Below, piece after piece: positions 39,229 through 63,629 of a stretch of DNA of 64,000 nt. A model generated the notes under the pieces. It was not told the DNA's origin, did not search any database, and saw nothing but the letters and a program-made list of their open reading frames with translations. The translations under genes were made by a program, and so were the position numbers. How positions within the stretch are numbered: position 1 is the first letter of the stretch; every line of letters starts with the position of its first letter. The stretch comes from Sphingobacterium sp. N143. GTDB lineage: Bacteria; Bacteroidota; Bacteroidia; Sphingobacteriales; Sphingobacteriaceae. The DNA is taken from assembly GCF_030325625.1 (NCBI RefSeq), contig NZ_JACAIS010000003.1, positions 1-64,000 on the forward strand, in the 5' to 3' direction.

Positions 39229-39275
39229 ATCTATCTCAGTTTTATTTTTGTGCTTATTAAAAAATTGACCTGCAT

Positions 39276-41258: not shown

Positions 41259-41264
41259 AACCTT

Positions 41265-42464: not shown

Positions 42465-42495
42465 CTTTCTAATTTTTGCATCAATTCATTTCTAT

Positions 42496-44607: not shown

Positions 44608-44635
44608 GATCTGTTTATTCAGAATATATAACCAA

Positions 44636-45871: not shown

Positions 45872-45923
45872 TTCAAGCTTTATCGGGTTTATATTGAGTT
45901 TTTTATGTCTTACTTTTTAAATC

Positions 45924-47060: not shown

Positions 47061-47152
47061 ATCTATTTATTCTTGAACCTCCTACAGTCACCCCTGTAAT
47101 CTCCATCTCGCCATAAGCATACAGGATGCCCATAGCGCGATGGAAATCGATA

Positions 47153-48073
47153 TTACTGTGCACAAAACGTCTGAAAACTCAGTTTGTTCACATCTTTCTG
47201 AAAGAGCTCAAATTGCTCCGCCGACATGTTTTTCACAGGTAGCCTAAACTCTCCACAATCAAGATCAATTAATTTCATATAAGCTTTCCCCACCGAAATA
47301 CCACCATACTTCCCAAGCAATGTGATCATGTCGATAGATTGCTGCTGCAATGCATTCGCTTTTTCAAGATCTCCCCTTTCATAAGCATCTATGAGCGCAA
47401 GATACAAAGGTGCGGCGTAGTTATAGGTACTTCCAACAGCTCCTTTGGTACCTAAAACCAAGGCTGACAGCATATTCTCATCCCTTCCCCATAACATATC
47501 ATACTTGTGATCGGCGTAATTCATACAGCTTAGAAAATCCATAAAGTCTTCGTGTGTGTATTTGATTCCCTTAAAATTGGGTATTATGCCATCCACCTTC
47601 TTCAACAAGTCGATCATCTGGAAATTTCCACCGGTCAATACAGGAATATGGTAATAATAGAAAGCCGTATTCGGAGCTGCACTTGCAATTTCGACACAGC
47701 ACTTTGCCAGCTGATCCACGTTGGCAGGTTTAAAATATGATGGTGAGGTAAATGAAACGGCATCTACCCCGACTTGCTCAGCCTGCCTAGCCAGTTGTTG
47801 ACATTCTTTGATGTTCGTTCCCCCTAAAAGCATCATGAGTGTAAATGCAGCATCCCCCTTTGTCAATGTGGCCCAGGCTGTCATCACTGCAACTTTTTCA
47901 TCAAAAGTCAATGATACCCCTTCTCCTGTTGAGCCGCAGATAAAAGCACCAGTCACCCGATTGCGTTTTAACATGGCATAGTACTGCGGAATCAGCTCAA
48001 GATTCAATTCTCCGTTTTCATCAAAGGGTGTAAAAGGCGCCGCAATTAATCCTGAGATTTTTTGATTTAGCAT
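47153..48073 (-). CDS. nanA: N-acetylneuraminate lyase
   Basis: A 306-residue class I aldolase of the DHDPS/NAL family. It splits N-acetylneuraminate into N-acetylmannosamine and pyruvate. The carboxylate-binding loop GSTGE is at 47-51, the catalytic Tyr is Y141 in YYHIPV (the equivalent of YNIP), and the Schiff-base Lys is K171 in NFKGIKYT, followed by HEDF and DMLWGRDE. The GSTGEGVSLT loop is typical of lyases rather than dihydrodipicolinate synthases. There is no signal peptide, so it is cytoplasmic. It is the first enzyme gene after susD (38-base gap), and the epimerase and transporter genes follow. Confidence 0.94.
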   Translation of the reverse strand: MLNQKISGLIAAPFTPFDENGELNLELIPQYYAMLKRNRVTGAFICGSTGEGVSLTFDEKVAVMTAWATLTKGDAAFTLMMLLGGTNIKECQQLARQAEQVGVDAVSFTSPSYFKPANVDQLAKCCVEIASAAPNTAFYYYHIPVLTGGNFQMIDLLKKVDGIIPNFKGIKYTHEDFMDFLSCMNYADHKYDMLWGRDENMLSALVLGTKGAVGSTYNYAAPLYLALIDAYERGDLEKANALQQQSIDMITLLGKYGGISVGKAYMKLIDLDCGEFRLPVKNMSAEQFELFQKDVNKLSFQTFCAQ

Positions 48074-48111
48074 GATAGTATATTTAATATGATTTTATTT
48101 TTCAAGAATAA

Positions 48112-49656
48112 CTAAAACGAAGCATAACCCTTTGTTTGCACCAGCAGACGGTTATTTGTCAACGCATCTCTATTAATCGGCCATAAAAGACGAAATGATT
48201 CGGCTACTGGCAATGAAGTATATTTATAAACAAAGTTATCTCCCATTCTTCTCAAATCGTACCAATATTTGCCCTCGCCAATAAATTCCAATTTGCGTTC
48301 TTTCAAAATGGCCTCCATAGGATCGGCGTCCATGGTCTGATTTGGAAAGCCTAGCGTACCTTCGTTGTAATTACTGCCATATGCCCTCGCTCTAACCAAA
48401 TTTATTTCTTCTTTGGGATCTTCACCGAGTATCACTTTAGCTTCAGCTAACAGCAAAAGTAAATCTGCATAGCGATAGATCGGAAAATCATTCGTAAATG
48501 CCCGGGATCCTGCATTTTGTTCTCCCTGATATTTTTTCAGGAAACAACCAGCCATGCTGAACTTTCCGGTAGCATCTTTTGAGTATGCCGCTTGAATGGA
48601 TATATTTTTACGTTGATCCAAATCGCTATAGTCCCGATACGAACGGATGCGTGTCGGTGCACGTAGTATTCCGCCATAATTTTCGGCTGTTACGCTGAAT
48701 TTTCTGTTGGAAAGCGAATCATAATAATTGGCGATAAGCCCCGATTGTGGAACAAAATCGGATATAAAACCTAAGGTAGCTTCATTTAACTGATGGCGGG
48801 TGACAAAAATCATTTCACTATTACCGCGATTGGTTGAAGAAAATAGACTGGAAAAATCTGGTTGCAGTGACAGTGTGAGATTTGACTTGATTTCCGATAA
48901 AGCATTTTTGGCTGTTAAAGCAGCATCTTTCCCCCCGCCTCTATGTGCATTCCAAAGATTCACCTCTGCTTTGAGCATTAATGTTGCTGCTTTTGACCAG
49001 TACGATTTGGTATTTTTTACAGAATAATCCGATCCGAAGGAAGTCAACGAGTTTTCAAGATCCGCAACAACGAGTGCCAGTACATCCGAAGCTGGTGAAG
49101 CTGCTTTGGCAAGGCTGGTAATATCAATGTTTCCAACAGGTTCTGTCTGCAGCACAGCATCCCCCCAGGAGCGATACAACTGAAAATAATAAAATGCCCG
49201 CATTCCGTAGGCAATCCCCAAATAATAACCTTTATTTTGAGCAGTCACGACATCAGTCGTATTCAGTTTACTGATTAACAAATTTATCTGATTAATATTC
49301 TCGTAAAACGAACCAAAGTTGCTCACCCCAGGGTTATCAAGATCCAAATTATGATTCCACATTCTTTCCAGCCCCTGGGGAGCTTCGCCTGTAAAAGATG
49401 ATGTCGTTCCGGGGTCGTTTCCAAAGACCTCGCCCTGGTATTCACCCAAAAGGACAAATGCGCGTTCATGGCTCCTAAATCTGGCGTGTAAACCACTCAC
49501 AAAAGAGTCAAACTGATCTGCTGTCTTCCAATAATTCCCGTCACTAATGGTACTTACAGGATTTAGCTCCAGATTTTTATTGCAAGAACTTAAAAGGCCC
49601 AGGCCCAATAGCGTTGCCAAGCTCAGCGTTTTTATATTGATTTTCATCATTTTCAA
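48112..49656 (-). CDS. RagB/SusD family lipoprotein of the sialic-acid locus (NanU-like)
   Basis: A 514-residue SusD-like lipoprotein, with lipobox LLSSCNKNLELNP (Cys about 27). SusD features are DQFDSFVSGLHARF near the N-terminus, GMRAFYYFQLYRSWGDAV (about 151-168), the IYRYADLLLLLAEAKVILGED region and ILKERKLEFIGEGKYWYDLRRMGD (about 450-474). It lies 9 bases after its susC. In Bacteroidota nan loci the SusD homologue (NanU) binds sialic acid with high affinity, and its position before nanA makes that role likely here. Ligand specificity is from context. Confidence 0.94.
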   Translation of the reverse strand: MKMMKINIKTLSLATLLGLGLLSSCNKNLELNPVSTISDGNYWKTADQFDSFVSGLHARFRSHERAFVLLGEYQGEVFGNDPGTTSSFTGEAPQGLERMWNHNLDLDNPGVSNFGSFYENINQINLLISKLNTTDVVTAQNKGYYLGIAYGMRAFYYFQLYRSWGDAVLQTEPVGNIDITSLAKAASPASDVLALVVADLENSLTSFGSDYSVKNTKSYWSKAATLMLKAEVNLWNAHRGGGKDAALTAKNALSEIKSNLTLSLQPDFSSLFSSTNRGNSEMIFVTRHQLNEATLGFISDFVPQSGLIANYYDSLSNRKFSVTAENYGGILRAPTRIRSYRDYSDLDQRKNISIQAAYSKDATGKFSMAGCFLKKYQGEQNAGSRAFTNDFPIYRYADLLLLLAEAKVILGEDPKEEINLVRARAYGSNYNEGTLGFPNQTMDADPMEAILKERKLEFIGEGKYWYDLRRMGDNFVYKYTSLPVAESFRLLWPINRDALTNNRLLVQTKGYASF

Positions 49657-49665
49657 AGTTTAAGA

Positions 49666-52600
49666 TTAAAAGGATAGTTGAACACCCAGGACATATGATC
49701 TTGGTGTAGGATAAGTCCCTAAATATATGCCTGTAACCAAATTATTCCCAGCTACCGGTGGCTCAGGTGATGGTCCCGAGAATTTTGTGATGTAAAACAG
49801 GTTAGATCCGGTAAAATAAATACGTGCATGTGAAAATACCCGCGATTTTTCCAGTAATGACTTGGGCATATCATACGAAAGGGTCAGCTCACGGAGGGCC
49901 AAATAATCCCCTTTTTCATAAAATCTCGAATTGTTGCTATTCAATACCGCATTGGCATTATTGCCACGTGTATAATTCTGTTTGGATCCGCCGACCTGAT
50001 CAGCGAAATATACCTTTGGAATGTCCGTTACAGTATTGGAAGGTGACCAAGCCTGCTTTTGCAACTCAATATAATTGAACGTACCTTGATAATTACCTAA
50101 GGTCCTTGCGACAAGGTCATTATAAATAGTATGACCAAGCGCAAATTCCCAATTTGAAAAAAGACTCAGATTCTTATAACTTAAATTAGTCGTAAAACCA
50201 CCCGTCCATTTCGGGTTAATATTGCCCATATAAACTTGGTCGCGTGAATCAATAATATCATTGCCATCCACATCCAGCCAGTTGACGTCTCCAGGTGTAA
50301 TTCTTCCATTTTTTCCAGCAGGAAGGTTCGGCCCGGTAATTCCAGCGATATTATCTGTCCGATTTCCAGCAATTGCCATTACCTCAGCATCATCTTTAAA
50401 TATCGACATCTGTCTGTAGGCGTAGATATCACCCAGGGCTTGCCCCTCTTGATACCCACCTACCCATCTTACCTGACCTGAAGCTGGATCAAATATCTGT
50501 AACCCGCCTTGACGGTTGTTCTCATTACCATTATTCGGTAATTCCAGTATCTTGTTTTTAACAAATGCGGCATTGGCCCCAATATTCAAATTAATCCCAT
50601 CTGGATTTCTAAGTACACGGGCCTGAAGACCAAACTCCAATCCCTTGTTTTGCAAGGTACCTAAATTGGTATTTATGGATGAAAAACCTATATAACTAGG
50701 CAGCGTTAGATCTGTTAAAAGATTTTTAGTTTTTCTATCATAATAATCGAATAGTAAGGTCACGCGGTCTTGCCATAATCCCAGGTCCAAACCTATACCT
50801 GTAGTTTTACTCGTTTCCCAAACCAAATTTCCATTGACGGGCTGTGTATTTAGATAACCAGCTATCCCATTGTAATTGGTTTGCAAGGAATACGTCCCCT
50901 GGACTTCATATCGCCCCAGCCCGTTTATATTTCCATTTTCTCCATAGCTGAGTCTAGGCTTCAAGGTTGAAATATACTGTGCCAATTTGGTGTCTTTAAA
51001 AAATGCTTCTTGATGCACATTCCAACCAGCGGAAAGGCCTGGAAAAAAGCCCCACCGATGGCCATCTGCTAAACTCGACACACCATCCAGACGGTATACG
51101 GCATTTAACAAATATTTCCCATCATAATCATAAGCCAAGCGTCCCATGGAAGAAATAATTCTATATTCAGATTTGGAGGAGGTATTATCACCCGCTACGA
51201 AAACAGTCGATGCATTGACGGTCGGTATATCGTCTGTAGGCGCATTTTTCCCATACACTTGCATATAATCAGTTTTCGTGTTAAAATACTCTGCCCCCAA
51301 CATGGCATTCAGGTTATGCTTCTCGCCGAATGTCTTGGTATAATTTAAAATACCGTTGAACTGTGTCTGAAAATCGCGATTGATATTGCGATAGGCATCC
51401 CTAGAAGTACTACCTATAGTCTCTGGATTGGAAAATACATTGGCATATGTTTGGGTAGATTTTTGAAAGAACTCGTTTAACACTTCTTTCATATAGGCAT
51501 TTCCTGAAACTTTGAGATATAGACCAGGAATGATATCCCATTTTAGGGAACCATTTAGGACAATGCGATTCGTTTCATTGTTTCTTTCCATACGGCTCAA
51601 CCAATACAATGGATTGCCGTCATTGATGCCATTACCAGGGTTAGGTCTTGTTTTGGCTTCATCAACCCAGGGATTAAATGTAGGCCAAATAGCCAAATTC
51701 CGATATAATGCACTTACTTCAGATCCACCAACCCCATATTGAGAAGCCGTTGACAGATTCACGGATGTAGTAACCTCCAGATTAGGTTTCAACTTATATG
51801 ACCCATTGAGGTCGGCCGTATATCTTTTATACTTAGAGCCAACGATAATACCATTTTCATCATATGCATCAAATGCTGCGAAATATTTTCCACGATCGTT
51901 ACCGCCGGATACATTCACATAGTGATCCTTTGTATAGGTATTCCGAAATAAGATATCCTCAATCTCGCCTGAATGGTCTTTATAGATTATTTGGCCACCA
52001 TAGGGATCTTCGACCAGTTGCCAGCCTTTAGCTAATAATGGATCCAGGTCAGATGTGTAACGACGGATATCGAACGATGATAAATTGGCATTGTCAGTCA
52101 ATAATCCCAATCCCCTGGCACCATTTGCTGTCTCAATCGTTTTACCCGCATTTAAATACCCCAAGCGTGTATAATAAATGTAGTCCCCGGCGTTCATGTA
52201 ACGATATCCATCCCGACGCTGGTTAAAGCCTCCTGTGAATTTATAGGATATATTTGACACTCCCGACTTACCGGTTTTCGTTGTGATCAAAACGACACCA
52301 TTATTTGCACGGGCTCCATATATGGCCGTTGCAGAAGCATCTTTTAGCAGTTCTATGGATTCAATATTATCCGAACTCACGTCATTCATATCGCGAATGA
52401 CACCGTCTATTACCACCAATGGGGGGCTGGAACTTTTAATTGATGCCCCACCGCGCAATTTTAACATAGGTGCTGCACCGGGTGTACCCGATTTGTTCAC
52501 CACCTGCAGTCCAGGTACAGTTCCCTGTAAGGCTGTAGCAACATTAGAACGGGGTGTATTTTGTAGAACAGTTTTATCCACCTTGGAGATGGAGCCAGTT

Positions 52601-52965
52601 ACACTTCTCCTATTTTGCGTTCCATACCCCACTACCACAACCTCATCCATTTGCTCAACCCTGGACTCAAGTCTGATATCCAATTGATTTAATTGCCCAA
52701 CTTTTACTTCATACGGCCTATATCCTGTAGACGTGATAATTAAAATAGTATTGGGATTGGTACTGATCGAGAACGTTCCATCAGCACTTGCCTGCAAAGA
52801 TTGGTTGGATCCTTTGACCTTTACCGTGGCATTACTAAGTAATTCGCCAGTCTTTGCATCGCTAATTTTTCCTCGCACTGCATGGTCTTGTGCTTGAGCC
52901 AACAGCATATTGCCGGTCAATAAAGACAAGGTGAGAAGAGTTCGTAATTTTAGGTTTGAATACAT
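49666..52965 (-). CDS. SusC/RagA family TonB-linked transporter of the sialic-acid locus (NanO-like)
   Basis: A 1099-residue TonB-dependent receptor with a signal peptide ending at AQAQDHAV, a carboxypeptidase-regulatory-like domain (about 29-103), a TonB box QMDEVVVVGYGTQNRRS (about 105-121), a plug (GAAPMLKLRGGASI, LLKDASATAIYGARANNGVVLITTKTG) and a barrel ending in LGVQLSF. There is no STN domain. It heads the nan operon and is divergent from a FadR-type regulator. Upstream are a TATATTTG -7 box and a TTTG at -33 spacing, with a palindromic operator over the start-point region. It would import sialic acid or sialo-oligosaccharides. Confidence 0.96.
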   Translation of the reverse strand: MYSNLKLRTLLTLSLLTGNMLLAQAQDHAVRGKISDAKTGELLSNATVKVKGSNQSLQASADGTFSISTNPNTILIITSTGYRPYEVKVGQLNQLDIRLESRVEQMDEVVVVGYGTQNRRSVTGSISKVDKTVLQNTPRSNVATALQGTVPGLQVVNKSGTPGAAPMLKLRGGASIKSSSPPLVVIDGVIRDMNDVSSDNIESIELLKDASATAIYGARANNGVVLITTKTGKSGVSNISYKFTGGFNQRRDGYRYMNAGDYIYYTRLGYLNAGKTIETANGARGLGLLTDNANLSSFDIRRYTSDLDPLLAKGWQLVEDPYGGQIIYKDHSGEIEDILFRNTYTKDHYVNVSGGNDRGKYFAAFDAYDENGIIVGSKYKRYTADLNGSYKLKPNLEVTTSVNLSTASQYGVGGSEVSALYRNLAIWPTFNPWVDEAKTRPNPGNGINDGNPLYWLSRMERNNETNRIVLNGSLKWDIIPGLYLKVSGNAYMKEVLNEFFQKSTQTYANVFSNPETIGSTSRDAYRNINRDFQTQFNGILNYTKTFGEKHNLNAMLGAEYFNTKTDYMQVYGKNAPTDDIPTVNASTVFVAGDNTSSKSEYRIISSMGRLAYDYDGKYLLNAVYRLDGVSSLADGHRWGFFPGLSAGWNVHQEAFFKDTKLAQYISTLKPRLSYGENGNINGLGRYEVQGTYSLQTNYNGIAGYLNTQPVNGNLVWETSKTTGIGLDLGLWQDRVTLLFDYYDRKTKNLLTDLTLPSYIGFSSINTNLGTLQNKGLEFGLQARVLRNPDGINLNIGANAAFVKNKILELPNNGNENNRQGGLQIFDPASGQVRWVGGYQEGQALGDIYAYRQMSIFKDDAEVMAIAGNRTDNIAGITGPNLPAGKNGRITPGDVNWLDVDGNDIIDSRDQVYMGNINPKWTGGFTTNLSYKNLSLFSNWEFALGHTIYNDLVARTLGNYQGTFNYIELQKQAWSPSNTVTDIPKVYFADQVGGSKQNYTRGNNANAVLNSNNSRFYEKGDYLALRELTLSYDMPKSLLEKSRVFSHARIYFTGSNLFYITKFSGPSPEPPVAGNNLVTGIYLGTYPTPRSYVLGVQLSF

Positions 52966-52976
52966 ATTGGTTTGTA

Positions 52977-52991
52977 TTAAGTATTACATAA
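52977..52991. promoter_or_regulatory. operator site 1 at the nan susC start point
   Basis: TTAAGTATTACATAA differs by one base from the perfect palindrome TTATGTATTACATAA at 62801-62815. It lies 3 bases downstream of the susC -7 box and so covers the probable transcription start. A bound protein here would repress. Likely target of the adjacent FadR/GntR regulator (inference). Confidence 0.6.
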
Positions 52992-52994
52992 TGA

Positions 52995-53027
52995 CAAATA
53001 TATAAAATATAGAATGTAAAAAACAAA
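52995..53027 (-). promoter_or_regulatory. promoter of the nan susC operon
   Basis: On the minus strand TTTG (53027-53024), 21 bases, then TATATTTG (53002-52995) match the Bacteroidota -33/-7 consensus. A second TATATTTG-type box overlaps the -33 (53031-53024). The start codon is about 30 bases further downstream. Confidence 0.6.
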
Positions 53028-53038
53028 TATAAATTACA

Positions 53039-53053
53039 TTATGTATAACATAT
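53039..53053. promoter_or_regulatory. operator site 2 between nan susC and fadR-type gene
   Basis: TTATGTATAACATAT shares the TATGT-3-ACATA arrangement with the other sites. It is upstream of the susC -33 box and near the -33 region of the divergent regulator promoter. Confidence 0.5.
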
Positions 53054-53070
53054 TGTTGATTTTAATTAAT

Positions 53071-53078
53071 TATCTTTG
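53071..53078 (+). promoter_or_regulatory. candidate -7 box of the fadR-type gene
   Basis: TATCTTTG fits TAnnTTTG and lies about 35 bases before the Met at 53113. TTG at 53053-53055 is a possible -33, with a short 15-base spacer. Its position means translation cannot start at the earlier in-frame ATG at 53041. Confidence 0.45.
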
Positions 53079-53100
53079 TCTTAACGCGCCTAATGCGCTA

Positions 53101-53113
53101 TATGTAATATATA
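53101..53113. promoter_or_regulatory. weak operator-like site at the fadR-type start codon
   Basis: TATGTAATATATA keeps one intact TATGT arm and a one-mismatch second arm of the operator pattern, and touches the chosen start codon. It could serve autoregulation. Support is weak in AT-rich DNA. Confidence 0.3.
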
Positions 53114-53853
53114 TGGAATCGAAATCTTCGCTCATAGAACATCTGAATACAATTGATACCTCTTCATTAGTAGATCGTGCAGAAAAAGAAATCATCAACC
53201 TCTTTGTCAATCAAGGTTTAAAAGTTGGGGATGCATTACCTAAGGAAATTGAATTAGCTGAAACGCTTGGCGTTAGCCGTACAGTTGTTCGGGAGGCCAT
53301 GCTAAGATTGCGTATGATAGGATTGATTGAATCAAAAAAACATCGCGGAGCTGTTCTTACAAGTCCTGATCTTATCAAACCGCTGCGCAAATCACTTTAT
53401 CCAACCATCATGGAAAACAAGACTTTACAAGATCTATTTGAAATGCGTATGATTTTGGAAGTGGGTATGGCTGATATTCTATTCGAACATATACAGGAAA
53501 AAGATATTGAAGAATTGGAAGCGATCGTTGCAAAGGAACCATTGGATGCAGATAATACAATTTTTGACATTGAAACTGAAATTTCCTTTCACGGTAAACT
53601 TTATGAAATAACCGGCAACACGATCCTCAAAGACTTCCAGCATATGCTCTTACCTGTTTTTCAGTATGTTCATAGCAGTGGTCTATTGACCAGTTCTAGC
53701 GCATCAAAAAGTTTCATATCACACCGTGGATTAGTGGATATATTAAAGGTGGGGAATGCGGAAGTTTTTAGGAATGCTATGCGGAAGCATCTTGATAATC
53801 ATTATCAAAGGCTCTTTTCGTATAAGAAATCGGCTGATGTAAGTCGGCAGTAA
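53113..53853 (+). CDS. FadR/GntR family (FCD) transcriptional regulator of the sialic-acid locus
   Basis: About 246 residues from the Met at 53113. The frame stays open to 53041, but that part (YNILLILINYLCLN) covers the likely promoter and is not protein-like. The GntR winged helix (about 15-85 of the short form) includes GDALPKEIELAETLGVSRTVVREAMLRLRMIGLIES. The FCD ligand domain follows with FEMRMILEVGMADILFE, the metal-site-type Asp/His pattern in EISFHGKLYEITGN, and SHRGLVDILKVGNAEVFRNAMRKHLDNHY. Such regulators sense sugar acids; NanR of E. coli is one that responds to Neu5Ac. It is divergent from nan susC and followed by the sulfatase gene, so a NanR-like repressor role is likely. Confidence 0.92.
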   Translation: MESKSSLIEHLNTIDTSSLVDRAEKEIINLFVNQGLKVGDALPKEIELAETLGVSRTVVREAMLRLRMIGLIESKKHRGAVLTSPDLIKPLRKSLYPTIMENKTLQDLFEMRMILEVGMADILFEHIQEKDIEELEAIVAKEPLDADNTIFDIETEISFHGKLYEITGNTILKDFQHMLLPVFQYVHSSGLLTSSSASKSFISHRGLVDILKVGNAEVFRNAMRKHLDNHYQRLFSYKKSADVSRQ

Positions 53854-53916
53854 AAGCGTAAAATCAGCTCCCTTCCCCCCAAAAAAAACAACGATCAATT
53901 TTAAACAGAATGTACA

Positions 53917-55449
53917 ATGAAACTAAAAACTCTCTTATTCGTATTGCTTGCACTGCCGCTATTTAAACCTGCTTCTGCACAGAAAAAACCTAACATTGTC
54001 ATTATTATTTCGGATGATCATGCCTATCAGACCATTGGAGCCTATGGTTCACCATATGGCAAGACCCCACAGATTGATCGCATTGCTGCTCAAGGAGCCA
54101 TATTTAAAAATGCTTTTGTCAACAATTCCATATGTGGTCCAGCGCGAGCCACTTTGTTGACCGGCAAGTACAGTCATAAAAATGGATTTAAGGATAATGA
54201 AACTTCTGCATTTGACTATAGCCAGGACCTTTTTGTCAAGCAGTTGCAAAATGTGGGCTACAATACCGCCTGGGTGGGTAAGATTCATTTGGGTGACAAA
54301 TTACAGGGCTTCAATTACTACGATATTCTGGTTGGACAGGGAACCTATTTCAATCCGGATTTTATTAGCAAGCAGGGACGTAAACGTACCGAAGGTTACG
54401 TATCTGATATCGTCACCGAGAAAGCGATAAATTGGCTCGATACAGTCGATGCCAATAAACCTTTTTGCTTAGTCATCGGCCACAAGGCTACTCACCGGAC
54501 ATGGATGCCCGATCCAAAAGACTTTGGCACTTATGATACTGTCAATTTTACGTTACCCAAAACCTTCTACGACAATTACCAAAGTAGAGAAGCGGCAACC
54601 TTGCAAGAAATGTCAATTGATAAAGATATGCAGATGGGCTATGACCTTAAGATGTTCAAATCATTAGAAGATATGATGGCGGATGGCAATTTCAAACGGA
54701 TGAACCAAGCTCAAAAAGATAGCTATATTGCCTATTACCGCCCAATTTACGAACAATTAAAACAAGGTAAATTGACAGGTAAACAGCTAGCCGAATGGAA
54801 ATTCAAACGGTATATGATCGATTATCTTAATACGGCTCAATCAATGGACCGAAACATCGGTAAGGTATTAGATTATCTGGATCATAAATCCCTCAGCGAA
54901 AATACAATCGTTATTTATCTATCGGATCAAGGTTTTTATATGGGCGAACACGGCTGGTTTGACAAGCGCTGGATGTATGAGGAATCCTTTCGCACACCTA
55001 TGGTCATGCGTTACCCAGCCTTATTACAGGCACATTCAACCATTGATGCTAAAATCGTTAATGCCGATATTGCACCTACCTTGCTTGAGCTTGCCTCAGT
55101 CAAGAAACCTAAAGATATGCAAGGAGAATCTTTTGTTCATGTACTGAAAAATAATAAAGAAGAACATCGCAAAGATTTATTTTATCATTACTTTGAAAAT
55201 GGAGAACATGCCGTGAGTCCACATTTTGGGGTCCGAGATGACCGTTATAAATTGATCCGTTATTATAAACGCGTGGAAAATTGGGAACTTTTTGATCTTG
55301 AAAAAGATCCAAATGAGCTTCATAATGTATACAAGGATCCCTCTTACCGGAGCGTGGTCAACATGATGAAAAAGAAACTTGTCAATCAAATGCGCAAATT
55401 TGATGACAAAGAGGCAGAGGCTATTTATAAAGTCAATATAGACCATTAA
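53917..55449 (+). CDS. secreted S1-family sulfatase
   Basis: A 510-residue arylsulfatase-type enzyme with a signal peptide (to about 22). Metal-binding Asp residues are in IIISDDHAY, and the formylglycine site CGPAR (Cys73) is followed by ATLLTGKYSH, matching the C-x-P/A-x-R motif that needs activation by an anaerobic-type or FGE maturase. Later landmarks are GKIHLGD, GHKATHRTW, YLSDQGFYMGEHGWFDKRWMYEE and HNVYKDP. The overall pattern resembles S1 enzymes acting on sulfated hexosamines, but the subfamily is not certain. It lies 63 bases after the regulator gene in the same direction. Together with sialidase and hexosaminidase it suggests sulfated sialo-glycans such as mucin O-glycans. No maturase gene is in the window. 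Confidence 0.92.
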   Translation: MKLKTLLFVLLALPLFKPASAQKKPNIVIIISDDHAYQTIGAYGSPYGKTPQIDRIAAQGAIFKNAFVNNSICGPARATLLTGKYSHKNGFKDNETSAFDYSQDLFVKQLQNVGYNTAWVGKIHLGDKLQGFNYYDILVGQGTYFNPDFISKQGRKRTEGYVSDIVTEKAINWLDTVDANKPFCLVIGHKATHRTWMPDPKDFGTYDTVNFTLPKTFYDNYQSREAATLQEMSIDKDMQMGYDLKMFKSLEDMMADGNFKRMNQAQKDSYIAYYRPIYEQLKQGKLTGKQLAEWKFKRYMIDYLNTAQSMDRNIGKVLDYLDHKSLSENTIVIYLSDQGFYMGEHGWFDKRWMYEESFRTPMVMRYPALLQAHSTIDAKIVNADIAPTLLELASVKKPKDMQGESFVHVLKNNKEEHRKDLFYHYFENGEHAVSPHFGVRDDRYKLIRYYKRVENWELFDLEKDPNELHNVYKDPSYRSVVNMMKKKLVNQMRKFDDKEAEAIYKVNIDH

Positions 55450-55452
55450 CAA

Positions 55453-55486
55453 ACTGCGGGTATCCGATTTAATGGATACCCGCAGT
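55453..55486. terminator. bidirectional terminator between sulfatase and susD
   Basis: A 13-bp perfect stem, ACTGCGGGTATCC (55453-55465) with GGATACCCGCAGT (55474-55486), and an 8-base loop. It starts 4 bases after the sulfatase stop and is 63 bases from the stop of the convergent susD. Confidence 0.85.
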
Positions 55487-55548
55487 CGTTTATAAGCAAA
55501 CCACCACTCTTTTAACGGGGATAAGATGTCTCACAACTGCTTCAACAA

Positions 55549-57540
55549 TTAGGGGTTAGCCCCCTGATTAGCAACCAAAGGCCAATTAGGATTTTGATAG
55601 ATCATCGAACCACTCGGATTTCCATCCGTCGACGTTATGCTCAAATGACTTATAGCGATCGGTGACAAATAATGGGCACTTGTCCAGCTATAGCCATTTA
55701 AAACAAGATTATTAGCCGAAAGATTAATCCGATAGGGTCTTAAATATTGACTTTCCTGTGGTGAAGACACATTTGCGGTTTTCCCTGCAGTGCCTGGAAC
55801 GATTAGAGTAGTATTTCCTCCTTGCTTATACCAGTCTTGCATAGGCCCCCAAAGCTTCATTCCCTCGATAATGTATGGATTACTTGTCAATTGATCCAGT
55901 GCTCGCCAACGCTTGAGATCATTAAATCTAAAACCCTCCGCAATCAGCTCCAAACGGCGCTCCCTTCTGATATTATAAAGGATTTTGTCGGAAAGTAATC
56001 GTCCTGCTGAATATGCAGCGAAGTCTCCTTTAGCTTCCTTTTGCATGTCCGTCGCATTCACAGTTATCATAAAATCGGTATTTACACCTGCTCTTTCTCG
56101 GATTTTTGTCCAGTAGCTAGTGGCTTTTGCGTCTATCATTCCCTTTGCAAGATAACTCGCTTCAATATAGTTTAGATAGGCTTCTACGGCACGAAATACA
56201 ATCGAGCCTGTGGTACCCGTTTGCCCCTCAGCTTGGGAAAAAAGATAACTCATTCCTTTTTTTAAAGCGTAACCGGTCACATACCGTGTTTCTGCCAAGC
56301 CGATAATATCAGGTCGCGGCTCTGTCTGCACGCTACCTGTTGTTGAAGTCTGGTTGGTATAACTCAATTCTCCAGGGGCTTTCATAAATAGCTGTAGGCG
56401 ATTATCCCGATTTTTTTTGACGAGGCTAATTGAATCATCACCTGCATACCCAGAGTTTGAAGCATAAATAGGCAACCCATTTTTCATTGTAAAATTTTCC
56501 ACAAGACCTCTTGAATAACCAGAATTGCCACCATTACGATTCATGTAATGATTTACAGCATGTGTAATCCCTAAGGGTAGTGAGTAGCTCCGCCATAAAA
56601 GTACTTCGTTGTAACCATTTAGATTTTCGTCCCCAAACATTTTGAAATAGGGATTAGAAGATGAATTATAACCGTCGTCCTTTGTGTTTCCAACAAGCTC
56701 CACAGCATCAGCCACTTGAACTGCTGCCATCATCGATTGTTCTAAAAAATAACTGATCTCACTATCGATATTGATCGAAAAATTTGGATGTGATTTTGCA
56801 CCCGGCCAGCCAGCTCCTCCAGGAACAAACGCTGTTCCTTTATGATATTTTAACCAAGAGCCTTCAAATAGCCCTACTCGCGATTTGAAAAGTAATGCGG
56901 CCTTTTTTGAAATACGATTTTTCCCGTCTGGGGCAACATCATTCAATAGCGTAATCGCGGAATCTAAATCTGAAAGGATAAATCTAACTACCATATTCCT
57001 AGGTTGACGAATTGAAGCAGCCCTCAGCTCTTCCATATGATCTTTCAGTGTATGTTTAACAATTGGAAAATCACCTAGTGACTGTACTTTATTGAAATAT
57101 TCATACGCTCGCAAAAAATAGGCTTCACCCACGTAATGGTTTATATTTGCCGAATTTCCAGTTAATTTGCCATCCTTCCATTTGGGAAGTACTTGTTCGA
57201 GAAAATAGTTTAACTGCCTAATCTGAGTAAAATCCCACTCTCCCCCCGAACTTGGCACTCGCCATTCTCCGGGAACCCAACGTGTGGAATACCCCGAAGT
57301 CACCTGATTATCGGTACCGTTATCATTAGCAAAGATACCCAGTCCCCAACCAGCGTGTGATGGAAAGTTATACCGACCAACGGTATAGGCTGCTAAGTCT
57401 GCTTCAGTGTTTAAATATTCTTTTGGTGTCACATTAGACAAAGGCTCTCTGTCCAAATACTTATTGCAGGAATTCAGCGTTAGAATAAGTGTTAGCGACA
57501 ACCCCCAAATGATTGTCGAAAAATAGTATGTCGTTTTCAT
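55549..57540 (-). CDS. RagB/SusD family nutrient uptake lipoprotein
   Basis: A 663-residue SusD homologue. The lipobox is LTLNSCNKYLDREPLS (Cys about 25), with N-terminal EYLNTEADLAAYTVGRYNF, the helical GEAYFLRAYEYFNKVQSLGDFPIVKH segment (about 127-152), and ILYNIRRERRLELIAEGFRFNDLKRW (about 535-560). It ends with ISHLSITSTDGNPSGSMIYQNPNWP. It lies 10 bases after its susC and is the last gene of the ECF-controlled unit. No glycoside hydrolase follows on this strand, so the pair must depend on enzymes from elsewhere, possibly the sulfatase and nan enzymes next door. Confidence 0.95.
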   Translation of the reverse strand: MKTTYYFSTIIWGLSLTLILTLNSCNKYLDREPLSNVTPKEYLNTEADLAAYTVGRYNFPSHAGWGLGIFANDNGTDNQVTSGYSTRWVPGEWRVPSSGGEWDFTQIRQLNYFLEQVLPKWKDGKLTGNSANINHYVGEAYFLRAYEYFNKVQSLGDFPIVKHTLKDHMEELRAASIRQPRNMVVRFILSDLDSAITLLNDVAPDGKNRISKKAALLFKSRVGLFEGSWLKYHKGTAFVPGGAGWPGAKSHPNFSINIDSEISYFLEQSMMAAVQVADAVELVGNTKDDGYNSSSNPYFKMFGDENLNGYNEVLLWRSYSLPLGITHAVNHYMNRNGGNSGYSRGLVENFTMKNGLPIYASNSGYAGDDSISLVKKNRDNRLQLFMKAPGELSYTNQTSTTGSVQTEPRPDIIGLAETRYVTGYALKKGMSYLFSQAEGQTGTTGSIVFRAVEAYLNYIEASYLAKGMIDAKATSYWTKIRERAGVNTDFMITVNATDMQKEAKGDFAAYSAGRLLSDKILYNIRRERRLELIAEGFRFNDLKRWRALDQLTSNPYIIEGMKLWGPMQDWYKQGGNTTLIVPGTAGKTANVSSPQESQYLRPYRINLSANNLVLNGYSWTSAHYLSPIAISHLSITSTDGNPSGSMIYQNPNWPLVANQGANP

Positions 57541-57550
57541 CTCTATCTGT

Positions 57551-60500
57551 TTAAAAATTTATATTTAGTCCAAAAGAATACGTCGTTGAAAATGGATATG
57601 TTTTACCATCATTCCAGCCCCCAAGTCCAACAGTCTCCGGGTCAAAAACCTTAGCCATTTTGGTAAAAGTCAACAAATTCTCTCCTGATGCATAAACACG
57701 AATTTTTGAAAATCCTATTTTGTTCAATAGTTGGGGAGAAAACGTATAGCCCAGCTGAGCATTCTTTAAACGCAAATAAGCAGCGTTTTGTAAATATCTA
57801 GTTTGTGTTTGTTGGTTTTTCGAGGTATTAAAATAAGGTCTTGGTAAATACGAATCTTTATTAATACCCAAAACACCATTTTGTACCATAATAGAATTCT
57901 CATCACGATAGAAATCCATATTTTCTACAAATCCAGAAGATTGCCACATGCCACCATTCGCTCCCCAAAAATATGGGCCATTGGGCATGTAATCACGTTT
58001 TCCTACACCCTGCAAGAATATTCCCAGATCGAACCCTTTGTAATTAAGGCTTAAGTCAAAACTATAGCGATAACGTGGAGCCGAATTTCCTATGATTGTC
58101 AGATCCCCAGGATTTGCCAGCGTATTAGCTCCATTATTGACCTGGCCGTCTCCATTGAGATCAGCATACATAATATCACCAGCTTGCCAGTTTGTTCCAA
58201 AAGATTGTTTAGCGTTAGTAAGGTGGGCTGCCATTTCTTCTGCGCTCTGTGCTATTCCTAAAGTTTGGTACCCCCAGATTTCCCCATTCTTCCGCCCATC
58301 ATACCAAGTACTCAACGTACCTGTTGGATTGGGATATTTGGTAACTGTCTGGCGATCATCGGAAAGCACCCCTCTCACGCTATAATTTAATTTACCGATA
58401 TGATCTTTCCAATTTAGTTCAATTTCAAAGCCTTTGGAATTCATCTCGGCGTTGTTTAAGCGGGGTACAGCTGTGCCCAAAATGACAGGTAGCTCTGGTG
58501 CTGGCCCTATCATATCAAAGGTATTTCGACGATAGACTTCAAGAGATAAACCTAAGCGATTCGAAAGTGCTTGTACATCCAGGCCTATGTTCCAGCTGGA
58601 TACGCGTTCCCAGGTCAATGTCGACGCAATAAGCCCGGGAGCACCAGCTGTATTGGATTTTTGTCCATTCAAAAGCCATATGCCACTGGCAATACTTACT
58701 GGCATTGTCGCATAAAAAGGATACCAATTGTCCGTATATTGATTTCCCAACTCGCCATAGGAACCACGCAATTTAAACATGGATACATGCTCCTTAATAG
58801 GCCAAAAGGATTCATTTGCTAGGTTCCATCCTACGGAAACGGACGGAAACAGATTCCATCGCAAATCTCTTGGAAAACGTGAAGAACCATCGTACCGACC
58901 ATTAGCTTCAAAAAGATACTTATCTTTGTAACTATAGTTAAAACGTCCAAAAAATCCGGCGGTGGCCCAATGTTGATAACCACCCGATGCTCTCGGATTG
59001 GTGGTGGCGGTATTCAATGTCGGCACGTTATCTGTGATTAAATCACTCATGCTGCCATTAAGGTCCCTATATTTGTTCAGTTCTGAATTGAAACCACCTA
59101 AAATTTTAAAATGGTGATCATCGTTGATATCAATGGAATAATCCGAAAACAAATTGGTACTGAAATATTCATCTTTCCGATTGTACTCCGACACATTGGT
59201 ATATCCTGCCGCATTGTATCCTACTGCAACGGGAAAAGGGTTTCCTTTGGCGTCATTTGAATAAGCTCTCAAGATTTCAGCATGATCATTTTGACTTGTA
59301 ATGCGATAATTTACATTCCCGGTTATATTCCAGTTTTTGATTGGTTGATAATGCAATTGTAACTGTTGATAGAGAAAATCTTTCTGAAATTTTGAACGAC
59401 CTCCTTGCTGCAGCTGCAAAATTTCACTAGGTTCGGCATAATTTCCATTAGGATCATATAACGGTATAGTGGGCCATCTTCGAGCTATATTATGATAATA
59501 TAGATCATTCATATGACTTGCTTTTCCATAATCTTCCCGCACAAAACGTGTATTGGACATGAGATCCAATTTATCATTGATCTTGGCATTTATCTTAGTA
59601 GAGAAAGAATAGCGTTGGAAATTGTCCTTAGCAAATCGATTCAAACCCTTTTGATCCATATAATTTGCAGAACTATAAAAATTAAGTTTATCAGTACCAC
59701 CATTCAAACTAAGTGTATGTTCATGGGAAGTTGTAAAATCTCGATAAAACTCTTTAAACCAATTGGTATTTCCATTGGAACCTGTGTAATATTGAAACCT
59801 ATTATTCGCATCAGCTGTTGTTGTCGCCTCTATTTCTCCTTTTTGATAAGCTTCAATTCGGTCCAAAACTTCTTGTGAAAATTTTGCTCCCTCGCCATCG
59901 TTTGCTGCAACCTCATTGAAATAGTAAGCAAATGTTTTGGAATCTAACATCGTGGGTAGCCCTCGTGGCTTGCCTAATCTTATATTATTGCTATAATTTG
60001 CAGTTATCTTGCCTGATTTTCCAGACTTTGTCGTAATGAGAATAACACCAAAAGGTGCCCTCGACCCGTAAATAGCCGACGCAGCAGCATCTTTAAGTAC
60101 CGTAATATTTTCAATATCCTGAGGATTCAAAGCATTCATATTACCTTCCATTCCATCAATCAAAACCAAAACTGATGAACTTGACCCCACACCTATCGTT
60201 CCAGCACCGCGAATATTGACACTTAGATTTTGATTTAGCTCGCCCCCCAATCCAGTAGTCTGTAAATTTAGCCCAGGGATCATTCCCTGTAAAGCTTGTC
60301 CAACATTCTGTACAGGCCTTGATTCCAACTCTTTGCCATCAATAGAAGAAACTGCACCAGTCAAATTTGCTTTCTTTTGTGTTCCATATCCCACAACTAC
60401 GACTTCTTCCAAGGCCCTATCCTGCACTGACATCGTCAACAGTATTGGAGTGCGACTCGCATTTTGACTCACAGTAGCATATCCCACATAGGAAAAATCT

Positions 60501-61057
60501 AAAACGGATCTTTCATTCGCTACTTTTAAATTGAATGTGCCATCTTCTGCTGTCAATACAGAATTAGAGGTGCCTCTTTCTGTTACAGTCACACCTGCCA
60601 TGGGTTCACCCAAGGCATTTAAGACTGTCCCTTTAACCGCTATTTTATCTAATTTTTGACCTGAAATAATTTTTGATGTATTTCGCTCCCTGGGTTTAAC
60701 AATAATCGTCTTCCCTTCAATCACAAAATCTAGATCCTGTCCTGTCAAAGCTTTCTTCAACACCAATCGCAAGTCTAATTTCGAGCCCGAATAAGTGACC
60801 AATTTTTTGCTTTGTAGAATATCCGAATCATAGATGATCTGATATCCTGTTTGTCGGCGGATCTCTTTTAAGACTTCAGCTAGCGGTGCATTTTTTAAAT
60901 TCAGATTTAGCTCTTGAGCCTTTACTAAAGAAAAATTTTGGAGGGCCATTAAAGCGAAAATAGTACCAATTCTTGATGATCGCTTGAGAAAAGTGAAGGC
61001 AGATTCATTTCCAACTAGCCAAAATTTGTTTTTTTTTAGGTGAAATTTTTTATTCAT
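57551..61057 (-). CDS. SusC/RagA family TonB-linked receptor with N-terminal STN signalling domain
   Basis: A receptor of about 1168 residues. I prefer the Met at 61057 (NKKFHLKKN), although the frame is open to 61093. After the signal region comes a secretin/TonB short N-terminal domain (LNLNLKNAPLAEVLKEIRRQTGYQIIYDSDIL, then FVIEGKTIIVKPRE). It is followed by a carboxypeptidase-like domain, TonB box EEVVVVGYGTQKKANLTGAV, plug (LNQNLSVNIRGAGTI, VLKDAAASAIYGSRAPFGVILITTKSG) and a barrel ending in FGLNINF. The STN domain contacts the FecR anti-sigma factor across the periplasm, so substrate binding can switch on the ECF sigma factor encoded just upstream. It is the only one of the four SusC proteins here with this domain. 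Confidence 0.95.
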   Translation of the reverse strand: MNKKFHLKKNKFWLVGNESAFTFLKRSSRIGTIFALMALQNFSLVKAQELNLNLKNAPLAEVLKEIRRQTGYQIIYDSDILQSKKLVTYSGSKLDLRLVLKKALTGQDLDFVIEGKTIIVKPRERNTSKIISGQKLDKIAVKGTVLNALGEPMAGVTVTERGTSNSVLTAEDGTFNLKVANERSVLDFSYVGYATVSQNASRTPILLTMSVQDRALEEVVVVGYGTQKKANLTGAVSSIDGKELESRPVQNVGQALQGMIPGLNLQTTGLGGELNQNLSVNIRGAGTIGVGSSSSVLVLIDGMEGNMNALNPQDIENITVLKDAAASAIYGSRAPFGVILITTKSGKSGKITANYSNNIRLGKPRGLPTMLDSKTFAYYFNEVAANDGEGAKFSQEVLDRIEAYQKGEIEATTTADANNRFQYYTGSNGNTNWFKEFYRDFTTSHEHTLSLNGGTDKLNFYSSANYMDQKGLNRFAKDNFQRYSFSTKINAKINDKLDLMSNTRFVREDYGKASHMNDLYYHNIARRWPTIPLYDPNGNYAEPSEILQLQQGGRSKFQKDFLYQQLQLHYQPIKNWNITGNVNYRITSQNDHAEILRAYSNDAKGNPFPVAVGYNAAGYTNVSEYNRKDEYFSTNLFSDYSIDINDDHHFKILGGFNSELNKYRDLNGSMSDLITDNVPTLNTATTNPRASGGYQHWATAGFFGRFNYSYKDKYLFEANGRYDGSSRFPRDLRWNLFPSVSVGWNLANESFWPIKEHVSMFKLRGSYGELGNQYTDNWYPFYATMPVSIASGIWLLNGQKSNTAGAPGLIASTLTWERVSSWNIGLDVQALSNRLGLSLEVYRRNTFDMIGPAPELPVILGTAVPRLNNAEMNSKGFEIELNWKDHIGKLNYSVRGVLSDDRQTVTKYPNPTGTLSTWYDGRKNGEIWGYQTLGIAQSAEEMAAHLTNAKQSFGTNWQAGDIMYADLNGDGQVNNGANTLANPGDLTIIGNSAPRYRYSFDLSLNYKGFDLGIFLQGVGKRDYMPNGPYFWGANGGMWQSSGFVENMDFYRDENSIMVQNGVLGINKDSYLPRPYFNTSKNQQTQTRYLQNAAYLRLKNAQLGYTFSPQLLNKIGFSKIRVYASGENLLTFTKMAKVFDPETVGLGGWNDGKTYPFSTTYSFGLNINF

Positions 61058-61127
61058 ATTTTTAGGTTTATTGTAAATGGGGACTTTCCCCAATTCTACA
61101 ATAAAGAGTCTTCCAAACTCAGTTACC

Positions 61128-62117
61128 CTAAAAACTATTTTGAAAAACTATTTTATGGCCTTCCAAATTGATATCCATATTGCCTGATTTTTTTATAAGA
61201 TCTAAAATTTCAGAAAAAGGACGATCTCTTTTAAGAAATAATGTAAAATTCCGTTTTGGAACTTTATTGGCATCAAAATGAATGGGATAAATATTAGCAA
61301 GATCTGAAAGAATATAGCTTAAGCTTTTGTTTTCGTAATATAAGTTACCATCTTTCCAAGAGGTATAGTCTTCAGTTATAGCAATTGTTTTACTGATAGC
61401 CCCCTGCTCATTTAGCACGGCCCGCTCTCCAGGAGAAAGTGACGCATTTTTTCCAGATTTAGTACTTCTTAAAGCGATTCTTCCCTCTGTTAAAACAGCT
61501 TCTTCTACCTTTCCTCTCGACAAAACATTGAACTTAGTACCTAAAACGGAAATACGCTGACCTTCGGTCAGGACAACAAGTTTTTGCTTCTTTCCATACT
61601 GTTCCTTATGAGAAGCTTCAAAAAAAGCTTCTCCTTTTAGCTTCACGACCCTATTTTCTAAAAAATTTCCTTTATAACTCAATTCAGAGTTGGAATTGAG
61701 AAATACTGTTGTCCCATCTTTTAACAAAACCTTATAAAAGCCGCCAACACCAACACGCAAAACAACATCATCAAACTGAGAAACTGATGATTCTGTCTGT
61801 TCAATAATCAACATATTGTTTTTTTTGCTGACTTTGAAAGGTTTGTCTCCACTATTCCTCCATGCTGTAAGCGGAACAGGCTTTGATCCTGAAATTGTAA
61901 TATCGCCAGCTGTAATATCGGCATAAATATGTTCCGCTTGTTTAGGCGAAAAATCATTAGAACGCAAATAAAAAATGATTAAACTAACGGAAATAGATAA
62001 AACAAAAAATAGGATGCTTCCATTCAACAAACGTTTTTTACGCTCCTTCGCACTAATAGTTGCTTGAATACGATCAAAAGTTTGTTTTTTTATATCTTCT
62101 CTATCGTTTAGGGACAT
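61128..62117 (-). CDS. FecR family anti-sigma factor
   Basis: A 329-residue inner-membrane anti-sigma regulator. A short cytoplasmic N-terminus (about 1-30) is followed by one transmembrane helix (about 31-50, NGSILFFVLSISVSLIIFYL). The periplasmic FecR domain (about 110-215) has VVLRVGVGGFYKVLLKDGTTVFLNSNSELSY, RVVKLKGEAFFEASH and ISVLGTKFNVLSR, and a DUF4974 C-terminal domain (about 250-329) has YENKSLSYILSDLANIYPIHF. The N-terminal sigma-binding part is short compared with many FecRs. It lies 71 bases after the sigma gene, with a TTTGTA-A-TACAAA palindrome between, and 70 bases before the STN-type susC. Confidence 0.95.
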   Translation of the reverse strand: MSLNDREDIKKQTFDRIQATISAKERKKRLLNGSILFFVLSISVSLIIFYLRSNDFSPKQAEHIYADITAGDITISGSKPVPLTAWRNSGDKPFKVSKKNNMLIIEQTESSVSQFDDVVLRVGVGGFYKVLLKDGTTVFLNSNSELSYKGNFLENRVVKLKGEAFFEASHKEQYGKKQKLVVLTEGQRISVLGTKFNVLSRGKVEEAVLTEGRIALRSTKSGKNASLSPGERAVLNEQGAISKTIAITEDYTSWKDGNLYYENKSLSYILSDLANIYPIHFDANKVPKRNFTLFLKRDRPFSEILDLIKKSGNMDINLEGHKIVFQNSF

Positions 62118-62154
62118 ATGCGTATAATACGGGTGAATTTAAAGGTTTTAATTG

Positions 62155-62167
62155 TTTGTAATACAAA
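62155..62167. promoter_or_regulatory. palindrome between ECF sigma and fecR genes
   Basis: TTTGTA, A, TACAAA is a perfect 6-1-6 inverted repeat sharing the TGTAnTACA core of the operator at 62801-62815. It may be a second, weaker site for the same regulator or an RNA hairpin between the genes. Confidence 0.3.
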
Positions 62168-62188
62168 ATAACGAAAAGGTTAATATAA

Positions 62189-62725
62189 TTATAAGGCTTT
62201 TCGTAATTTATTCAAGACTTTTGATATATGATATTCAACAGATTTAATACTTAGATTCATTTTTTTTGCGATTTGTTTGTAGGATAAATCATCTTCGCGG
62301 CTCATAATAAAAATTGCTCTCGTTTTGTTCGGAAGCCTTGCTATTAACTTATCAAGCTGATCGGAAAGCTCTTTATATAGAAGTTCATCATGATCATTAG
62401 ATATATCTAACATCAGCTGTTCCTCCACTTCATTTAATCTACGCAGTTTTCCCAACAACTTAAAACATCTGTTTTTCGTACAAATGAACAAATAATCTTT
62501 AAGCGATGAATGAATGTCTAATCGATTATGCCGCGCCCATAATTCGGTAAAAACATCATGAATAACATCCTGAGCAAGATACTCCTCTTTCATTATTCGA
62601 AGCGCAAAATTATACAATCCATCCCAGTAAAAATTATAAACTAGGGAAAATGCTTGCATATCTCCTTCTTTTAGACATAGTAATATTTTGTGTTCTATTT
62701 GACTTTCCACTTGATTCGATTCCAT
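62189..62725 (-). CDS. ECF RNA polymerase sigma-70 factor
   Basis: A 178-residue ECF sigma factor of the Bacteroidota FecI-like group. The sigma2 region is at about 18-85 (FSLVYNFYWDGLYNFALRIMKEEYLAQDVIHDVFTELWARH), with SLKDYLFICTKNRCFKLLGKLRR after it. The sigma4 region is at about 120-175 (LIARLPNKTRAIFIMSREDDLSYKQIAKKMNLSIKSVEYHISKVLNKLRK). Sigma3 is absent, as expected. It is the first gene of sigma-fecR-susC-susD and should drive that locus when the STN receptor signals. Its own promoter region carries the perfect TTATGTATTACATAA palindrome. Confidence 0.95.
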   Translation of the reverse strand: MESNQVESQIEHKILLCLKEGDMQAFSLVYNFYWDGLYNFALRIMKEEYLAQDVIHDVFTELWARHNRLDIHSSLKDYLFICTKNRCFKLLGKLRRLNEVEEQLMLDISNDHDELLYKELSDQLDKLIARLPNKTRAIFIMSREDDLSYKQIAKKMNLSIKSVEYHISKVLNKLRKAL

Positions 62726-63035
62726 ATTGGTATTTAAATGTTCTAGGTTAGCAGAATGTTTTTAAGATTAATTGGTTAGATTAAGAATATGCTAACAGTA
62801 TTATGTATTACATAAAGTACAATATTAAGACTTTTTTATAAATGTATGTCATGATATATAAATTTTTTAAATAAAAAAATCATCCCAATTTTGCTTTGAC
62901 TAGAAATTATATTGCTCTTTTTATTACCTTGGTATATTGATATTTTTATTTCATTGAAGGATACCATGATAAAAACAAGAATGATATAAACATTTCAAAG
63001 ATAATAGTATTCAAAAACCTATAAATTGATCACAT
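62726..63035. other. divergent region between two ECF sigma genes
   Basis: This very AT-rich gap holds the promoters of two opposite ECF sigma genes. On the minus side a TAATATTG -7-like box (62827-62820) is followed by the operator palindrome at 62801-62815. No good TAnnTTTG box was found for the plus-strand sigma gene. Confidence 0.45.
62801..62815. promoter_or_regulatory. perfect operator palindrome upstream of the ECF sigma gene
   Basis: TTATGTA, T, TACATAA is a perfect 7-1-7 inverted repeat about 75 bases before the sigma start. It lies 4 bases downstream of a TAATATTG box, nearly the same position as operator site 1 relative to the nan susC -7 box. It matches site 1 in 14 of 15 bases. 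Confidence 0.6.
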
Positions 63036-63629
63036 TTGAACGATGACATAGTCATATTGCAAAAGTTATTACAGGGTAATCAAATTGCCCTGAGGGAACT
63101 GTATGACAAATATGCGCAAATGGTGTATCAGCTGGCTTTCCATATTTTAAAGGATGAGCAGATCGCTGAAGAGATTGTACAAGACACTTTCCTTCAATTG
63201 TGGGGTTCGAGAGAAAAAATAGATGCAGCGAGCAATATTCGGACATTTATTTATGTGATCAGTCGGAATAAATGTTTCAATAGGCTAAAACAACTTAAAA
63301 GATACCATAGCCTCTTCGAACCGCTACTTATCGAAGAATCTTATGACCACATTTCTGAACAAGACCCTTTGGCCGAAAAAGAGGTGACCGAAGCATTGGA
63401 ACAATTGGTTCAAAAGCTACCAACGAAACAACAGCTTGTATTCCGCATGAGCCGGTTCGAAGGCTTGTCACATCAGGAAATAGCACAACAATTGTCCATT
63501 TCCACAAATACCGTAAAAAATCATCTCGTATCTTCCTTAAAGTTTATTAGGGAAGAGCTTAAACGGAACCCTGAGGACTCATCTTTCATCTATCCAGTAT
63601 TATTTTTTGCTTTTTTTTTCATCGACTAG
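63036..63629 (+). CDS. ECF RNA polymerase sigma-70 factor (TTG start)
   Basis: A 197-residue ECF sigma factor. Sigma2 lies at about 8-75 (LLQGNQIALRELYDKYAQMVYQLAFHILKDEQIAEEIVQDTFLQLWGSRE) and is followed by NIRTFIYVISRNKCFNRLKQLKR. Sigma4 lies at about 120-175 (LVQKLPTKQQLVFRMSRFEGLSHQEIAQQLSISTNTVKNHLVSSLKFIREEL). The conserved sigma2 begins before the first in-frame ATG (residue 28), so the TTG at 63036 is taken as the start. A short hydrophobic tail (FIYPVLFFAFFFID) ends the protein and is unusual for a sigma factor. The partial FecR gene follows after 45 bases. It belongs to a second cell-surface signalling locus outside the window. Confidence 0.93.
   Translation: MNDDIVILQKLLQGNQIALRELYDKYAQMVYQLAFHILKDEQIAEEIVQDTFLQLWGSREKIDAASNIRTFIYVISRNKCFNRLKQLKRYHSLFEPLLIEESYDHISEQDPLAEKEVTEALEQLVQKLPTKQQLVFRMSRFEGLSHQEIAQQLSISTNTVKNHLVSSLKFIREELKRNPEDSSFIYPVLFFAFFFID

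Follow-up and report, generated by a model that had tools for sequence, protein, structure and literature searches.

In the window, a 64,000-nucleotide stretch of DNA from Sphingobacterium sp. N143, a sialic-acid (nan) operon and a nearby ECF-sigma SusC/SusD locus carry nearly the same palindromic operator, and a NanR-like GntR regulator is encoded between the two sites (Table 1). The best model, which we regard as likely, combines NanR-like repression of the gene for the sigma factor ECF-A with FecIR-type surface signaling by the transporter SusC2. At the level of sequence and conservation, this model is supported by the operator and its association with the ECF gene, the co-occurrence of the regulator, the signaling domains and a candidate sigma promoter, and the proposal of the first-pass annotation that one sialic-acid-type sensor gates both loci is largely upheld.

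Table 1 Features of the nan/gntR and ECF-A loci in the window.
Feature	Position	Strand	Remarks
Remainder of nan operon: susD, NanA-like lyase, NanM-like epimerase, MFS transporter, O-acetylesterase-like protein, AGE epimerase, hexosaminidase, sialidase-like protein	38071..49656	-	Order kept in relatives
nan susC	49666..52965	-	Gene 1 of the sialic-acid operon; no hit for an STN signaling domain
Operator 1, TTATGTAATACTTAA	52977..52991	-	At predicted nan susC transcription start; conserved in Sphingobacterium
nan susC -7-like box, TATATTTG	52995..53002	-	From sequence; -33 TTTG at 53024-53027
Operator 2, TTATGTATAACATAT	53039..53053	+	Next to -33 of the gntR promoter; lies upstream of nan susC as well
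Weak operator-like variant over gntR start	53101..53113	.	Doubtful
FadR-subfamily GntR regulator (NanR-like), 246 aa, HTH + FCD	53113..53853	+	Pfam
Sulfatase (SGSH_C)	53917..55449	+	Downstream of gntR
SusD2	55549..57540	-	Pfam
SusC2 TonB-dependent transporter with STN	57551..61057	-	Pfam STN, Plug and barrel; TIGR04056
Candidate ECF-A-dependent promoter, GGGTAACTGAGTTTGGAAGACTCTTTA	61102..61128	-	Precedes susC2
FecR-type anti-sigma factor	61128..62117	-	Pfam FecR and FecR_C
ECF sigma factor ECF-A, 178 aa	62189..62725	-	TIGR02985, Pfam
Operator 3, perfect, TTATGTAATACATAA	62801..62815	-	ECF sigma promoter; sole exact genome copy
ECF sigma gene -7-like box, TAATATTG	62820..62827	-	Invariant in six genomes

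The start of gntR is most likely at 53113 rather than 53041, and that of susC2 is probably the ATG at 61057. Operator 2 is predicted to be the autoregulatory gntR site. Another ECF/FecR/SusC locus, divergent from the first and encoding a fucosidase-like protein (ECF gene at 63036–63629; L185), starts 221 bp from operator 3, and no operator of its own was seen there.

The 15-mers of operators 1 and 3 lie at the coordinates given by the first-pass annotation and are identical at 14 of 15 positions; as also claimed, the palindrome follows the −7-like box by 3 nt at nan susC and by 4 nt at the ECF gene. The sequence of operator 3, TTATGTATTACATAA, has one exact copy in the 5.15-Mb genome. Allowing up to one mismatch to TTATGTATKACATAA returned three distinct genome sites (62801, 52977 and C17:114113) compared to about 2.6 expected, each of them at a gntR, nan or ECF promoter. 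Whether the motif is simply common in this genome depended on stringency, as the exact 15-mer is unique and variants with up to two mismatches are at chance level (47 genome rows versus 54 for a reversed-pattern control). Because these looser counts did not exceed the control, variant sites were judged by conservation and not by number, and the case as a whole rests on conservation rather than on counting. A chance match in AT-rich intergenic DNA would agree with the two-mismatch variants being no commoner than the reversed pattern, but is almost certainly not the explanation: under an order-2 Markov model fitted to the window, 0.03 exact copies per genome would be expected, yet the exact site is found at every ECF-A ortholog and, in four genomes, at a second sigma gene (ECF-B), and its presence tracks that of the regulator.

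The operator was defined at the nan/gntR loci of relatives. GntR orthologs and homologs were collected with up to 10 kb of flank per side, and most homologs above ~55% identity, from Sphingobacterium and Chitinophagaceae, are divergent from a nan operon of susC, susD, nanA, nanM and an MFS transporter. At 32 such loci, the 260 bp upstream of gntR contain a site with at most one mismatch to TTATGTATKACATAA, although the GntR proteins at these loci are often just 56–61% identical; the Chitinophagaceae form of operator 1 is TTATGTATGACATAA. The palindromic GT-N3-AC core of TTATGTATKACATAA is conserved, as in operators of the FadR subfamily, and the site fits NyGTM-N0-1-KACNy, the subfamily consensus from a survey that holds no Bacteroidetes member (PMC4494728). 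Since the palindrome recurs beside nan susC/gntR orthologs in both Sphingobacteriaceae and Chitinophagaceae, TTATGTATKACATAA is very probably, on this comparative evidence, the operator of the GntR protein at 53113–53853.

A weight matrix built from the nan/gntR sites of relatives, with the window left out, has a maximum of 24.3 bits, which the ECF site attains; the 52977 site scored 20.4 bits. The further variants listed in the first-pass annotation fared unequally. The one at 53039–53053 (14.5 bits) is considered real because it is kept in all Sphingobacterium orthologs of at least 72% identity, while that at 53101–53113 (7.4 bits) is doubtful because only some of the nearest relatives retain it. 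The 62155–62167 variant was rejected as an operator, with 2.8 versus 24.3 bits and loss in five of five relatives (scores of −7 to −9.4). Across the genus, 31 exact copies of the operator were counted compared to three for the reversed pattern, and 21 of them are at nan/gntR (5), sulfatase (6), ECF-A (6) or ECF-B (4) genes. At the sulfatase genes of relatives (L016:10946, L017:11978, L020:10811 and L024:4533), a perfect operator directly precedes the gene, ~7 nt before a TAnnTTAG-like box; in the window, the sulfatase gene closely follows gntR.

The ECF site was then followed in 94 genomes of the genus, five of which, besides that of the window, encode an ECF-A sigma ortholog (88–90% identical). 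The perfect palindrome occupies the same place in the ECF-A promoter in all six genomes (sigma 88–100% identical). All 15 columns of operator 3 are invariant, and no other fully invariant 15-column stretch was present in the ECF-A intergenic region (0/142). The operator is positioned over a sigma promoter as in Fur–fecIR logic, and this placement is conserved. The ECF-A locus adjoins gntR only in the genome of the window and is unlinked in the other five: on the single contig of G079, gntR lies at 672 kb and the ECF-A sigma gene at 3,613 kb, ~2.9 Mb apart, and in the remaining four relatives the two genes are on different contigs. Neighboring loci alone could share a site by accident of position, but a site common to unlinked loci is no such accident, which supports selection of the link between operator and ECF sigma gene at the sequence level. 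The same comparison makes it very unlikely that operator 3 serves the divergent ECF gene instead of the one at 62725. The site does lie within the intergenic region common to both genes; in the five relatives, ECF-A retains it next to different upstream neighbors, none of which is this divergent ECF gene, and this change of neighbors disfavors the divergent gene as the target.

The GntR protein matched PF00392 (N-terminal HTH) and PF07729 (C-terminal FCD) above cut-off, which places it in the FadR subfamily, and its structural matches include E. coli NanR (6on4). Its best NCBIfam match, NanR, remained below threshold (93.4 bits versus a cut-off of 260). GntR and FCD were its Pfam matches, with no ROK domain, and its operator is a palindrome and not the GGTATA direct repeat of the E. 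coli type. Comparative genomics supports the suggestion that this protein is the shared binding partner of both sites.

This genome (G000) also contains a second nan-like cluster (C17:106000–114200; L176), with a GntR protein, GntR2 (C17:113286–113957), 49% identical to NanR, a BNR-repeat sialidase-like protein, a NanA-like lyase (41%), a NanM-like protein and a transporter. The GntR2 gene is flanked by the operators TTATGTAGTACATAT and TTATGTACTACATAA, which are C/G-centered and have the same half-sequence as the NanR sites. With identical half-sites, and with a C-centered site preceding the ECF gene in G004 and G005, the ECF site might be bound mainly by GntR2, or by both proteins. We consider this improbable: the five other ECF-A genomes each hold one GntR match at E ≤ 1e-40, the NanR ortholog, GntR2-like proteins group in a clade of their own (100/100), and the ECF-A sites have the A/T center of most NanR sites, not C/G. 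The separate clade and its absence from those five genomes make NanR the better candidate; in this genome, GntR2 could still cross-bind the near-identical operator.

Conservation of the operator extends beyond that of ECF-A. Where SusC2/SusD2 orthologs (at least 65% identity) are accompanied by a sigma factor of only 29–48% identity, an operator still heads the locus in G055 (TTATGTATGACATAA, 23.7 bits), G004 and G005 (TTATGTACTACATAA, 22.0 bits), G052 (TTAAGTATGACATAA, 19.8 bits) and G083 (TTTTGTATGACATAA, 16.5 bits). At L232, L238, L239 and L241, SusC and SusD are 65–73% identical, the sigma/anti-sigma genes were seemingly replaced by distant ones and the operator persists. G012, G021 and G018 have SusC2/D2 orthologs and an ECF gene with no site, and a NanR-like protein is present in at least G012 and G021; in G023, no regulator match, ECF gene or convincing site was found. 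Among more distant SusC2 homologs (44–49%), no head-of-locus operator was detected (0/22).

ECF-B belongs to a non-orthologous ECF locus (sigma and SusC both 27% identical). Its sigma promoter has a perfect site in G062, G075, G078 and G079; in two of these genomes ECF-B adjoins gntR, and in two it is unlinked. The ECF-B site of G055 is poor (12.5), and the orthologs in G077 and G085 (76–79%), genomes with no NanR match, lack the site (−6.2 and −3.5 bits). Operator scores at 22 unrelated ECF genes did not exceed 4.7. In G272, from another genus, a perfect site lies 326 bp upstream of the sigma start of an ECF-FecR-SusCD-GH29 locus, and an operator site is also present at nan. In relatives, the ECF-A locus continues into an α-L-fucosidase (GH29) and a GH2 enzyme, which fits host glycans as the substrate; close copies of both are absent from this genome, where the best matches elsewhere are 42% and 38% identical. 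The GH2 gene downstream of ECF-A in relatives has an operator of its own, TTATGTATAACATAA (L173:3689, L174:18266, L171:19635 and L175:177). On balance, we favor the view that the NanR-like repressor serves as the master gate for a number of unrelated ECF-sigma SusCD loci, namely those of ECF-A, of ECF-B and of the replaced sigma cassettes, and was recruited more than once. If so, sialic acid would license a host-glycan suite (fucosidase, sulfatase and β-galactosidase-like enzyme), each member needing its own surface signal.

The second step of the model concerns the activity of the sigma factor. An STN-bearing SusC2, a FecR protein in the same operon and an ECF sigma factor make up a FecIRA-type gene set. 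At 61102–61128, the element GGGTAA-N12-GACTCTTTA occurs once per genome in seven of seven genomes, always at the FecR–SusC junction, with no match to the reversed control. Both boxes are kept in G083, where the sigma factor is 48% identical and the flanks have diverged. From this pattern, the element may be the dedicated promoter of the ECF-A sigma factor. A predicted stable RNA hairpin precedes susC2 (61058–61135, minus strand; −27.6 kcal/mol, z −4.55) and overlaps the candidate promoter; it might act in attenuation or as a leader. As a general promoter of FecR-linked SusC genes, GGGTA-N-GACTC (spacing of 13) was discarded, being found only at ECF-A-type loci and at none of 12 other FecR-linked SusC genes or 25 SusC genes lacking FecR.

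The ECF, FecR, SusC and SusD genes share one orientation and are separated by about 10–71 bp, and a single NanR-controlled transcript is therefore possible; the sigma factor would then act at other sites or only on its own gene, and there would be no two-signal gate. Such an arrangement bears on the second step alone and could coexist with NanR acting on the ECF gene. It appears rather unlikely, given the unique promoter-like element conserved at the FecR–SusC junction and the STN domain of SusC2.

Under the favored model of repression plus surface signaling, we infer binding and repression by the GntR protein, the identity of its inducer and signaling through FecR and STN as follows. Without inducer, the GntR protein would occupy the promoters of nan susC, its own gene and the ECF sigma/FecR pair, keeping the sigma factor scarce. 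A metabolite arising as sialic acid is broken down would release the protein, turning on the nan operon and allowing the sigma/anti-sigma pair to be produced. A ligand at the STN-bearing SusC2 would then free the sigma factor from FecR for transcription of susC2D2 from the candidate promoter. As both internal release and an outside signal would be needed, the circuit would act as an AND gate for sialic acid used inside and the cognate glycan of the locus outside. ECF-sigma SusCD loci are usually regarded as self-contained switches that answer to their own glycan only. In this case, the very presence of the switch seems to depend on a cytoplasmic sugar sensor, a logic of iron uptake moved to glycans. 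The model provides a testable regulon for an uncharacterized regulator and predicts that sialic acid serves as the cue for host glycoprotein.

The first-pass annotation had presented this layered control as undescribed in Bacteroidota. In the open-access literature searched, we found no account of the present regulator and none of a glycan locus in which a repressor controls the ECF sigma gene; a repressor over a surface-signaling sigma gene is, as general logic, already known from fec/Fur. Bacteroides ECF SusCD loci likewise combine an ECF factor, a FecR-like anti-sigma factor and SusC/D with surface signaling (PMC3878776, PMC10766802), and we found no description of the sigma gene there being under a dedicated pathway repressor. 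The predicted sialic-acid regulator of Bacteroides thetaiotaomicron, NanR (BT0433), comes from the same phylum and is an unrelated protein of the ROK family; in the portion of PMC3878776 concerned, its control of an ECF sigma gene is not described. In the same species, PerR has been associated with the ECF factor SigR-1 in stress (PMC12596196).

E. coli NanR resembles the regulator of the window in its FadR subfamily, FCD domain and adjacent sialic-acid pathway, but binds (GGTATA) direct repeats (PMC8012715, PMC4494728) instead of a 15-bp palindrome. The closest logic is that of E. coli fec, in which Fur represses fecIR at a sigma-70 promoter and FecA signals via FecR to FecI for transcription of fecA (PMC9249621). 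Both arrangements place a cytoplasmic repressor on the housekeeping-type promoter of a sigma/anti-sigma pair (here predicted) and the activity of the sigma factor under an outer-membrane transporter with a signaling domain (here predicted from the gene set). In contrast to Fur–fecIR, the signal would be a sugar and not iron, the repressor a FadR-type GntR protein and not Fur, and the target a SusCD glycan locus. The operator of the present system also persists while sigma cassettes are swapped, a regulatory site that outlives the sigma/anti-sigma genes under its predicted control.
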